Assembly: GCA_002841685.1 (NCBI GenBank) | Contig: PHAM01000065.1 | Span: 1 to 9,465 of the forward strand | DNA: 9,465 nt | From: Elusimicrobia bacterium HGW-Elusimicrobia-2 | GTDB taxonomy: Bacteria; CG03 | Direction: 5' to 3' | In this document: in pieces, positions 5,416 through 9,465 of the stretch | How positions within the stretch are numbered: the stretch's first letter is position 1 | How the letters are laid out: each line of letters starts with the position of its first letter | The notes under the pieces: model-generated | What the model was told of the DNA's origin: nothing | Seen by the model: only the letters and a program-made list of their open reading frames with translations | Database searches by the model: none | Made by a program: the position numbers and the translations under genes

Positions 5416-7899
5416 ATGAAACAGACAATGACTGAGATGCAGTTCAAAGCGGAATTGGCCAAATGCGAATATTGCGAGGAAAGGCCCTGCGAATCCGCTT
5501 GCCCGGCGAATTGTTCGCCTTTTGATTTTATAATGGCCTCGAAAGAGGGCGAAGCTCAGGATTATCTGAGAGCGGCATCCGCGATAATGAAGAGCAATCC
5601 GCTCGGCGGCGTCTGCGGCACGGTTTGTCCCGACAGGCACTGCATGGCGAAATGTTCGCACAAGGATTTTGACGGTTCCGTCAAAATACCCGAGGTGCAG
5701 GCCTATATAATACAAAAAGCCAGAGAACTGGGCGGGATCCCGGGGTTCAATAAGGCAAAATCAAAAGGGAAGAAAATAGCCGTCATCGGCGCCGGTCCCG
5801 CCGGACTTGCCGCGGCGGCTGTGCTCGCTCAGAAGGGTTATCAGGTCGTTGTCTTTGAGAAAAACCGTCTTCCCGGCGGAGCCTGCAACCTCATACCCGC
5901 TTTCAGGCTGGACAGAAAGATCATCAAGACGGATATAGATTTCATAAAAGCGCTCGGAAGCATAGAGATACGCACAGGTCAGGCGGTGAAAGAAGCCTCG
6001 GATCTGCTTAAAAAAGATTATAAGGCCGTTATTTCGGCCACGGGCCTCTGGGCGCCGATTCTTCCCGGAATTGAAAATCAGGGCAAGGCTGTCAATGTCA
6101 TAGACTATTTGATCAATCCGAAAAAATACAAATTCGCAGGCAAAGTCGCTGTCATAGGCGGTGGGGCATCCGCGGTTGACTGCGCGGTGACGGCGAAAAA
6201 AAACGGCGCCCCAAAGGTGGAGATGTTTATCCTTGAAACAGTTTCCGAGATGCCGCTGAGCGCTAAGGAAAGAGAAGAGCTCCTTGAAAACGGCATTGAA
6301 CTGACCAACAGGACCTCGGTGACGGCCATCAAGACAAAGAGCGGAAAAATTTCAGGGCTCACAATGGTAAAGGTAGATCTTGCCGCCGGCAAAAAATTCG
6401 CGCTCAAAGATCTGAAGACGATTTCCGGCACGGAGCAGTCAAGAAGCGACATCAAAAATGTGATCATCGCCATAGGCACCCGCGCCGGAAAACGTTTTGC
6501 CCGGACGAAAGGAGTTTTCTCCGCGGGAGATTACGCCAACGGCCCCACAACGGTAGTTGAAGCCGTCGCTTCAGGGAAAAACGCCGCGGAAGAGGCCGCG
6601 GCTTATCTTGCCGGTAAAAAAGCATCGAAGGTGAAAAAGGACGTGAAGAGCACCGTGGAGATCAGCGGCTATGAACCGCTCCCCGTTTCTCTTGAGACGG
6701 ATTTTTTTGGCAGAAAGATAAATTCACCGTTTCTGCTTTCTGCGGCCCCCCCGTCAGACGGTTACGACCAGATGAAGAAGGCGTATGAATCAGGCTGGGC
6801 GGGCGGAATTATGAAGACGGCTTTTGACGGTGTGCCGATACACATCCCCGGCGAATATATGCATGCATTCAGCAAGACGACTTATGGCAACTGCGACAAT
6901 GTTTCCGGCCATTCTCTTTCAAGGGTCTGCGCTGAAGTTAAGAAGTTAGTTAAGCAATTTCCCGACAGGCTGACGATGGCCTCAACGGGCGGTCCTGTCA
7001 CGGGAAACGATAAGGAAGACAAAAAAGGTTGGCAGGCCAACACAAAGAAGCTTGAAAACGCCGGCGTTATGGGAATAGAGTATTCTCTTTCCTGCCCTCA
7101 GGGTGGCGACGGCACCGAGGGAGATATAGTTTCGCAGAACGCCGCTCTCACGGCTAAGATAATCGACTGGATTATGGAAGTGTCCGACCCGAATATACCG
7201 AAACTCTTCAAGCTCACCGGCGCCGTAACGTCAATAGTGCCAATAGCGCGGGCGATTAAGGAAGTGTTTGATAAGTATCCCGGAAAGAAAGCCGGCATCA
7301 CTCTTGCCAACACATTTCCCGTCGTGGATTTCAGGCCCGGGAAAAAAGGCAAATGGGATGAAGCCATTGTTTTCGGTATGAGCGGCGAGGCCGTGGCCCC
7401 AATAAGTTATAACAACCTGATATGCGCGATGCCTGTGGGCCTTACGATATCCGGCAACGGCGGCCCTATGAATTACAAGCAGGCGGCGCATTTCCTCGCC
7501 ATAGGCGTAAAAACTGTGCAGTTCTGCACGATGCCGACAAAATACGGCTGCGGAATTTATGACGAACTTGCCAGCGGCGTGAGTTATCTTATGAAACAGA
7601 GGGGAATAAAATCCATGAAAGAACTCATAGGTATAGCTCAGCCGAATCCCGTAACAGGTTTTATGGATATTTCGCCGACGAAACAAATATCGTCGCTGAA
7701 AGACAAAGAGATTTGTCTTAGCTGCGGCAACTGCGCCCGCTGTCCCTATCAGGCTATATCGCTGGATAAAGACGGCTTCCCTGAGATCGACCCCGCGAAA
7801 TGTATCGGCTGTTCCATCTGCACGAAGAAATGTTTTACCGGCGCTCTTGAAATGCGCAAAAGAACTCCGAAAGAATTAAAGCAGCTTAAAGAGGACTGA
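5416..7899 (+). CDS. dihydropyrimidine dehydrogenase-like Fe-S/FAD/FMN oxidoreductase (PreT-PreA-type fusion)
   Basis: This 827-residue cytoplasmic enzyme has the domain order of dihydropyrimidine dehydrogenase (1025 residues in mammals). Residues 17-95 hold two N-terminal Fe-S sites (C17, C20, C25, C29, C67, C71, C76, C80), with Q95 where DPD uses a glutamine ligand. An FAD Rossmann motif (GAGPAG from G125) and a second nucleotide site (GGGASAVD from G248) follow. An FMN TIM-barrel spans about 415-750, with catalytic-type Cys C560 (SLSCPQG), K599 and N632-T633. A C-terminal 2[4Fe-4S] ferredoxin domain follows (C767-C776 and C796-C806). Electrons should pass between NAD(P)H, FAD, the clusters and FMN. 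Three oddities stand out: S557 replaces the substrate-binding Asn of NLSC; the NADPH-binding Arg after the second Rossmann strand is missing (FILETVSEMP); and one ferredoxin cluster has CxxCxxCxxC spacing. The fold is certain. A pyrimidine substrate is only likely, and no catabolic neighbours support it. Confidence 0.82.
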   Translation: MKQTMTEMQFKAELAKCEYCEERPCESACPANCSPFDFIMASKEGEAQDYLRAASAIMKSNPLGGVCGTVCPDRHCMAKCSHKDFDGSVKIPEVQAYIIQKARELGGIPGFNKAKSKGKKIAVIGAGPAGLAAAAVLAQKGYQVVVFEKNRLPGGACNLIPAFRLDRKIIKTDIDFIKALGSIEIRTGQAVKEASDLLKKDYKAVISATGLWAPILPGIENQGKAVNVIDYLINPKKYKFAGKVAVIGGGASAVDCAVTAKKNGAPKVEMFILETVSEMPLSAKEREELLENGIELTNRTSVTAIKTKSGKISGLTMVKVDLAAGKKFALKDLKTISGTEQSRSDIKNVIIAIGTRAGKRFARTKGVFSAGDYANGPTTVVEAVASGKNAAEEAAAYLAGKKASKVKKDVKSTVEISGYEPLPVSLETDFFGRKINSPFLLSAAPPSDGYDQMKKAYESGWAGGIMKTAFDGVPIHIPGEYMHAFSKTTYGNCDNVSGHSLSRVCAEVKKLVKQFPDRLTMASTGGPVTGNDKEDKKGWQANTKKLENAGVMGIEYSLSCPQGGDGTEGDIVSQNAALTAKIIDWIMEVSDPNIPKLFKLTGAVTSIVPIARAIKEVFDKYPGKKAGITLANTFPVVDFRPGKKGKWDEAIVFGMSGEAVAPISYNNLICAMPVGLTISGNGGPMNYKQAAHFLAIGVKTVQFCTMPTKYGCGIYDELASGVSYLMKQRGIKSMKELIGIAQPNPVTGFMDISPTKQISSLKDKEICLSCGNCARCPYQAISLDKDGFPEIDPAKCIGCSICTKKCFTGALEMRKRTPKELKQLKED

Positions 7900-7916: not shown

Positions 7917-8364
7917 ATGAATCGGTCAGATAACTTAAAAACGCAGAAAGAAATTATTGTCAAAACCGTTTTAAGCCATTACCCTGATATACAGGCAATT
8001 TATCTTTTCGGTTCTTACGGCACCGGCGATGAATGGCCGGACAGCGATGTTGATATCGCTTTGCTTTTTAAGGCGGAGACAGCCGGGCGAACAAGCCGGG
8101 CGAACAGGTTCATTGACGATGAGTGATTTGAAATTTGAGCTGGAAAAGACGCTTAACAAAAAACTGGATATGGTTAATCTGCGGTTAATGAATACGGTTT
8201 TCCAAAAAGAAATCATTGACGCCGACGGCCGGATTTATTGCGGTGACGAATATAAAGCTGATGAATTTGAAATGCTGACAATCTCTAAATATCAGCGGTT
8301 GAATGAAGAAAGGAAAAGTATTATTGAGGATGCTTTAGCAACCGGGGGGTTTTATAATTTATGA
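7917..8364 (+). pseudogene. mntA: MntA-family nucleotidyltransferase antitoxin, frameshifted by a 13-base duplication
   Basis: In type VII toxin-antitoxin systems MntA is a minimal nucleotidyltransferase that neutralises the HEPN toxin HepT by adding AMP to a tyrosine. The first fragment (7917-8126, 69 residues) carries the catalytic GSYGTG...DSDVD motif (G32-S33, D44, D46) and then runs into out-of-frame codons and a TGA. The second frame (stop at 8364) resumes with MSDLKFELEK, LDMVNL (the probable third catalytic Asp region), NTVFQKEII and DEYKADEFEML, all typical of the MntA C-terminus. An exact 13-base tandem duplication (8081-8106) explains the shift. With one copy removed, the frame reads AETAGRTGSLTMSDL and gives a 144-residue protein of normal length. 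An ATG at 8119 lies 5 bases before the first fragment's stop, so a coupled 81-residue C-terminal fragment could be made. The gene overlaps hepT by ATGA. No strong ribosome binding site precedes 7917. Confidence 0.88.
8081..8106 (+). repeat. exact 13-base tandem duplication within mntA
   Basis: The unit AGCCGGGCGAACA occurs at 8081-8093 and again immediately at 8094-8106 with no mismatch. Thirteen is not a multiple of three, so the second copy shifts the mntA frame. The adjacent identical copies fit replication slippage and could in principle revert by loss of one unit. Confidence 0.95.
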
Positions 8365-8780
8365 ATGACATTATTTTGAACAAAAAAGAAAGCATTGAGC
8401 GTTGTATAAAACAGATTCGCGGTTACTATGCGCTCAAAAGTGATAAGGATTTCAAGGATGATTTTCTGAAACAGGACGCAATCGCTCTCAATTTACAGCG
8501 CGCCTGTGAGCAGGCTATTGACTTGGCCAATCATATTATAAAAATTCAAAAACTCGGTTTGCCGAAAGAGAGCAGGGAGAGTTTTCAATTACTGACAAAA
8601 AACAAAATCATACCCGAAGAAATGGGGCAGAAACTTGAAAAGATGGTTGGCTTCAGAAATGTGCTGATTCACGAATATCAGCAACTGGATGTAACTTTGA
8701 TGATAGATGTGATTGAAAATCATTTAGACGACCTGATTGATTACACCAACATTATTGTGAGCAAATTTTATAATGAGTAA
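8361..8780 (+). CDS. hepT: HepT-family HEPN ribonuclease toxin
   Basis: HepT is the HEPN-domain RNase of the MntA-HepT (type VII) toxin-antitoxin system; it acts as a dimer in the cytoplasm and cleaves RNA. This 139-residue helical protein has the family length and the RX4HXY motif as RNVLIHEY (encoded near 8662-8685): Arg and His form the nuclease site and the Tyr is the residue AMPylated by MntA. Other family features include the N-terminal IERCIKQIR helix, LNLQRACEQAIDLANHII and the C-terminal helix LDDLIDYTNIIV. The reading frame shows no lesion. The start overlaps the mntA stop (ATGA, 8361-8364), implying coupled translation, with only a G-run (8344-8349) as a possible ribosome site. The gene is more AT-rich than the housekeeping genes, consistent with horizontal acquisition. 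With mntA frameshifted, how the toxin is restrained is unclear. Confidence 0.9.
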   Translation: MNDIILNKKESIERCIKQIRGYYALKSDKDFKDDFLKQDAIALNLQRACEQAIDLANHIIKIQKLGLPKESRESFQLLTKNKIIPEEMGQKLEKMVGFRNVLIHEYQQLDVTLMIDVIENHLDDLIDYTNIIVSKFYNE

Positions 8781-9312
8781 TAGTGTAAATAAAACTCTTG
8801 ATAGCAAAGCGAAAGCATTGGTTCCTATCTTATTTCAACTTGTGGACAAAACCAGAGACTCATTATACACAGGTTTTAAATTGTATGAAAAAAAAACGGA
8901 GCATGTATTTGATGTTGATAAATTTAATGACAAGGGATATTATGAAATAGCACTTTTTTATCCTCACTTCGTAGACAGGATTGCTTTTGAATGCATGAAA
9001 ACAGATGAAAGGGAATTTTTTATGGAGGCATTAATTAAAGAGTTTTGTAATGTTATGGAAACTTCAATTGGGGAAACAGGTTTTGCTGAAAATTATATTA
9101 AACGGGAACAAGAGTATGAAAAATATAAAATGGTTTTTTTAGAAAACAACATGCCGGGAAGTGCAAAATATACAGTACTTTGGGAACTTGGAAACAAAAT
9201 AAGTAGGGTTTTAGATTGGAAAATGGATATTCTGTTGTTTACAACTATCTACGTTTGTTTTGTCTCTTACTGGTCTATGGTTCAGGAAATGCTACTTAAA
9301 AAGGATATATAG
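8773..9312 (+). CDS. unrecognised 179-residue protein, third gene of the toxin-antitoxin cluster
   Basis: I do not recognise this protein. It begins with an ATG that overlaps the last 8 bases of hepT, so translation is probably coupled; upstream there is only a weak GTGAG. The sequence is mostly helical in character, rich in Lys, Glu, Phe and Tyr. A distinctive middle reads FYPHFVDRIAFECM, then a charged stretch REQEYEKYKMVF. Near the C-terminus residues 153-170 (ILLFTTIYVCFVSYWSMV) are hydrophobic enough for one membrane helix, or a buried helix. There is no signal peptide and no motif I can assign to nuclease, ATPase or DNA-binding families. Base composition is very AT-rich: 16 G+C in the 60 bases from 8881, against 28 in the 60 from 7801. 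This suggests foreign origin with the module. The frame is intact and the long open reading frame in coupled context makes it a real gene. Confidence 0.75.
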   Translation: MSNSVNKTLDSKAKALVPILFQLVDKTRDSLYTGFKLYEKKTEHVFDVDKFNDKGYYEIALFYPHFVDRIAFECMKTDEREFFMEALIKEFCNVMETSIGETGFAENYIKREQEYEKYKMVFLENNMPGSAKYTVLWELGNKISRVLDWKMDILLFTTIYVCFVSYWSMVQEMLLKKDI

Positions 9313-9465
9313 TCTGGATTATTCACACTGTATGTCATTTCGAAGGAGTTTTTACGACTGAGAAATCTAACCCGAGTTCGCCAAACTGACAAAAAGTTCT
9401 TTGCTACACAAGCAATTTCATAAAAGTGTGGTCACTACCGATTGCTTGATTTTACTATTATACTG
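9313..9465. other. non-coding right edge
   Basis: These 153 bases carry no credible gene on either strand. They contain the repeat-like palindrome at 9333-9368 and otherwise AT-rich sequence. I see no convincing terminator for the upstream genes and no complete promoter before the window ends. Confidence 0.6.
9333..9368. repeat. candidate dispersed intergenic palindromic repeat (REP-like)
   Basis: The segment begins TGTCATTTCGAAGGAG and ends GACTGAGAAATCT. ATTTC and GAAAT form the base of an imperfect inverted repeat; 9 of 13 positions pair between ATTTCGAAGGAGT and ACGACTGAGAAAT. Short elements of the style GTCATT-CGA...GA-AATCT are familiar as multi-copy intergenic repeats in many bacterial genomes. 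Only one copy is visible here, so the assignment rests on resemblance. Confidence 0.45.

Follow-up and report, generated by a model that had tools for sequence, protein, structure and literature searches.

In Shewanella oneidensis, the antitoxin MntA adds AMPs to a tyrosine of the toxin HepT; its residues D39, D41, and D71 bind Mg, and its α4 helix (98-113) enters a groove of HepT, removal of the helix impairing neutralisation (PMC7641770). An antitoxin-only deletion failed in this species (PMC4621449). More generally, recent gain and loss of HEPN-MNT pairs have been described, and solo toxins and antitoxins are found in prokaryotic genomes (PMC2701414). The module described here lies in a window that is the whole of contig C15 (9465 bases), from a 1.78-Mb draft genome of 94 contigs that is 96% complete. 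It shares with the S. oneidensis pair (SO_3166/SO_3165, PDB 5yep; PMC4621449, PMC7641770) the gene order mntA-hepT, the gene overlap, the RX4HXY motif of HepT, and the GSX10DXD motif of MntA, and S. oneidensis MntA gives a family profile match of E = 5e-27 for the alignment of the relatives. Unlike that pair, it carries a 13-bp duplication that disrupts the antitoxin frame, and the length of the segment surrounding the break is also different. Like the solo toxins, hepT presumably has no functional partner here, but the partner gene is still present as two readable pieces (PMC2701414).

The toxin gene of the module is intact by sequence. hepT (8361-8780, plus strand) codes for a full-length protein of 139 aa with the RX4HXY motif RNVLIHEY at 8655-8678, which matches the NCBIfam profile NF047751 HepT_toxin as an equivalog (147.8 bits, cut-off 60), the Pfam family PF01934 (108.9 bits, cut-off 23.5), and PDB 5yep_B (phmmer E = 4e-38). 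On its profile, length, and motif, HepT is a predicted RNase toxin, and the gene pair is assigned on the same kind of evidence to the type VII HepT/MntA modules. mntA lies directly upstream, and the two genes overlap in an ATGA at 8361-8364, where the hepT ATG falls on the stop codon of the C-terminal mntA piece. Compared with close relatives, the ribosome-binding sequence of hepT is altered, GGGGGG at 8344-8349 (plus strand) standing for the GGGAGG found in most of the aligned upstream sequences. The end of hepT is overlapped by the start of an ORF of 179 aa (8773-9312, plus strand) to which no family was assigned; it had no match in Pfam or NCBIfam, a marginal one to PADLOC PDC-S02 (E 0.003), and no counterpart beside related HepT loci.

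mntA, hepT, and the 179-aa ORF form a low-GC segment that begins at 7917, where GC content drops from about 0.51 to 0.35. The left flank is anchored by a conserved host gene (5416-7899, plus strand) coding for a FAD/Fe-S oxidoreductase with a dihydropyrimidine-dehydrogenase-like part, and the genes further upstream are a small minus-strand ORF (956-1138), recG, and two coding for HEAT-repeat proteins. The first gene of the contig, viewed by eye, is presumably the C-terminal part of a Rel/SpoT-type protein. DNA identity to a congener (G003) is 93% up to position 7895, at the oxidoreductase stop codon, and in place of the module the congener contains an Mrr-type restriction gene (L068 3984-4995). 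Close HepT proteins were absent from the other genomes of the genus, the best being 30% identical. Because the identity to the congener ends at 7895 with an Mrr-type gene there, and the other genomes of the genus lack a close HepT, the module occupies a site whose defence or toxin-antitoxin genes vary. The contig stops at 9465 because of an interspersed repeat (9313-9465), about 98 bases of which are common to the ends of contigs C14, C18, C61, and C76, with shorter parts found elsewhere. Contig C48 of the same genome carries a tandem MNT-HEPN cluster (L092 7621-10622), in which two long ORFs of 280 and 308 aa each combine the two domains, alongside separate MNT and HEPN genes.

The exact 13-base tandem duplication reported in the first-pass annotation was recovered at 8081-8106. 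By direct sequence check, AGCCGGGCGAACA occupies 8081-8093 and, with the same letters, 8094-8106 on the plus strand, and Tandem Repeats Finder returned 2.0 copies with 100% match. In a direct test the period-13 run was exactly 26 bases, with no extension to either side, so the ends of the unit share no bases. Flanking microhomology is thus absent from the ends of the duplicated segment, and replication slippage, named in the annotation as the source, is for this reason possible rather than demonstrated. As background for repeat counts, 228 kb of stretches from the same genome were searched, and 4 exact two-copy repeats whose unit was at least 10 bases long were observed against about 0.3 expected in a Markov control; such repeats are therefore real mutational products, which rules out a chance repeat. 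The 9.5-kb window holds one repeat of this class, that of mntA. Three of the repeats in the 228-kb sample lie in ORFs and are all in-frame (units of 12, 15, and 12 bases), and the fourth, with a 12-base unit, lies at the end of contig C5. Unlike the three in ORFs, the mntA duplication has a 13-base unit and is out-of-frame. A further MNT gene in this genome (L087 3611-3636, contig C13) contains an exact in-frame 12-bp repeat (KLEEKLEE) that follows the DxD strand, at roughly the position of the mntA lesion within the protein.

The duplication brings a premature TGA at 8124-8126, which ends the first reading frame (7917-8126, plus strand) after 69 aa, and the remainder of MntA is read in another frame up to the stop at 8362-8364. 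The N-terminal piece retains the GSX10DXD catalytic motif as GSYGTGDEWPDSDVD (8010-8054) and scores 49.7 bits against Pfam Polbeta and 44.5 bits against NCBIfam NF047752 MntA_antitoxin (profile positions 2-36 of 106). The C-terminal piece (8119-8364, plus strand), 81 aa from a possible restart ATG at 8119, includes, by alignment, the Asp that is the third metal ligand and the region of the C-terminal helix, and matches positions 44-106 of 106 of NF047752 at 49.6 bits. Both values are below the curated cut-off of 60, against 103.4 bits for the MntA of an intact relative, and no single chain spans the whole MntA domain above that cut-off. The family identity of MntA and its truncation at this TGA, as first annotated, both hold. 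In a model of the L048 relative (pLDDT 92), helix 46-52 contains the break, which lies past the DxD strand (residues 38-43) and ahead of the invariant D73 and helix 100-130; this places the GSX10DXD motif on one piece and the third ligand and contact helix on the other. MntA as one chain is broken, and its capacity to neutralise HepT has probably been lost with it. Rejoining of the frames by ribosomal frameshifting was rejected, since no known +1 signal was seen by eye at mntA and the RNA fold of the break region was unremarkable (z -1.4).

A HepT search of 84,980 genomes gave 24 related loci. Phages and viral contigs yielded no HepT homologues and plasmids only ones of <60% identity, so that second copies of the module in mobile elements of these kinds were set aside. 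Twelve loci from KSB1, Nitrospirae, Desulfobacteraceae, Verrucomicrobia, and other groups (L044-L055), with HepT identities of 58-73% over 132 residues, were aligned. They have the same gene order and overlap, and their MntA is in one open frame in 12/12, that of L044 being shortened at its upstream end, whereas it is broken here. In 11/12 the stretch that separates the DxD strand from the conserved L55 has the one-copy length (L047 is three residues shorter), in agreement with the earlier view that one copy restores MntA length. The two-copy state is therefore derived, and an ancestral two-copy state is ruled out. The first-pass annotation had held that relatives with an intact frame and different sequence at this site would speak against the lesion. 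All of the relatives do have an intact frame with different residues, but 11/12 have them at the one-copy length, so the two-copy state is still the derived one and the lesion stands. A repeat of the AGCCGGGCGAACA type was present at the site in none of the aligned relatives, a pattern search found no one-copy allele outside the window, and no second allele of the mntA locus occurred in the genomes or viral contigs searched. Among the 24 loci, 20 have an MntA frame with its motif, two are cut by a contig end upstream (L043, L061), and two have lost the MntA frame with motif along with a complete HepT (L059, L065). Damaged toxins are also found among the relatives, with the catalytic His changed to Q in L044 and to Y in L055, and a frame break near the HepT start in L053. 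A full-length HepT with intact motif next to a broken MntA was seen only at the present locus in this survey.

The lesion had also been called recent, and this description stands in part. The copies are identical, there is no further stop or indel, and the branch-length ratio of the MntA C half to HepT in a shared tree is ordinary (1.30, against 0.67-2.03 in the relatives). On the other hand, 7/37 conserved sites (those kept in at least 90% of the other sequences) are changed in the C half, compared with 0/12 in the N block and 2/67 in HepT, the difference between C half and HepT giving a Fisher p of about 0.009. Only L055, whose toxin His is lost, has more C-half changes, and the near-invariant positions affected here include R93 and R133 (L048 numbering). 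These changes hint at a possible loosening of constraint in the C half. Since MntA is generally more variable than HepT, we call the lesion young and give it no date; synonymous sites are saturated, and dN/dS gives no age. That the 13-base lesion is fairly young is moderately supported. General decay of the region is ruled out by the intact neighbour genes and HepT.

The real puzzle is how the cell tolerates an intact HepT, given that deletion of mntA only failed in Shewanella. We think it rather probable that mntA is a young null allele in a horizontally acquired module and that it is tolerated, most likely, through reduced translation of HepT. The type VII module would have been gained by horizontal transfer, after which the antitoxin gene would have taken the derived, fairly young out-of-frame 13-bp tandem duplication, presumably by a replication error, with the premature stop abolishing MntA function. 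Translation of mntA ending about 235 bases upstream would uncouple hepT, whose ATG overlaps the mntA stop, and the change of GGGAGG to GGGGGG perhaps lowers HepT translation further. Several points run counter to a null allele: a G-rich sequence is kept 11 bases before the hepT ATG, so hepT is perhaps translated without coupling; the C half of mntA has stayed open; free synthesis of HepT should harm the cell, and the failed deletion in Shewanella might indicate that the mntA pieces are still functional; and the two-copy form could stem from the assembly or represent a minor allele.

The last of these points, in which most cells would carry one copy and an intact antitoxin, is in our view unlikely as the explanation of the locus. 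The draft genome is in 94 contigs, an intact HepT without antitoxin is hard to tolerate, and the interspersed repeat at the contig end signals difficult assembly nearby; however, the lesion lies >1 kb from that end in a contig whose genes other than mntA are uninterrupted, and an exact 13-base insertion is not, to our knowledge, a common short-read error. The chance is a little smaller that the two pieces form a split working antitoxin, translation stopping at 8124 and restarting at ATG 8119 so that two chains assemble into active MntA. This ATG overlaps the region of the premature TGA, 5 bases ahead of it, as a stop-restart arrangement would have it; the C piece runs through 81 codons without a stop and has the ordinary branch ratio given above; and the break falls in a segment of variable length, S. 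oneidensis MntA being shorter there and L047 lacking three residues. The HepT-MntA interface also appears flexible, because in Legionella the MNT protein keeps its toxin under control although it has no long α4 helix (PMC11586414). Against two working chains, only a weak AGG is found 10 bases ahead of the restart, the three-Asp active site must form from two pieces, R93, R133, and other near-invariant C-half positions are changed, and none of the relatives has a split MntA.

A phase-variable antitoxin, with the repeat losing and regaining a copy at a rate sufficient to turn MntA on and off, is highly improbable, and the reversible antitoxin switch suggested in the first-pass annotation is unsupported. 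Adjacent identical copies are able to contract in principle, and reversible frameshifts are documented as 'frameshift scars' in M. tuberculosis, where an out-of-frame indel likewise turns a gene off and can potentially revert; the evidence there came from population data, whereas the present case is one state in one assembly (PMC8339072). The mntA unit is long and present in two copies only, the searched genomes and viral contigs hold no second allele, and the relatives have no repeat tract at the site. Two-copy repeats with long units are as a rule much less mutable than established phase-variable tracts, and no directly comparable short-duplication switch was found in the literature. Neutralisation of HepT by a different MNT protein encoded in this genome is just as improbable. 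Searches of the genome gave 14 Polbeta-type and 6 HEPN matches, but the HEPN relative nearest to this HepT within it is only 27% identical, and pairs of the HepT/MntA family are expected to be specific. Should a two-piece antitoxin made by stop and restart still restrain HepT, or should the repeat toggle at a useful frequency, cells with an armed and cells with a disarmed addiction module would coexist in the population, an outcome to which we give only a slim chance.

Taken together, the observation and the family assignment are correct and the derived frameshift is real-looking; the lesion is ordinary in kind, one frameshift in one draft genome. A cell that loses an antitoxin while its toxin stays intact would be expected not to survive, so naturally occurring examples show how such modules die or get defused. 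The start of hepT inside the stop of mntA suggests a simple safety feature, by which a frameshift in the antitoxin may silence the toxin too.
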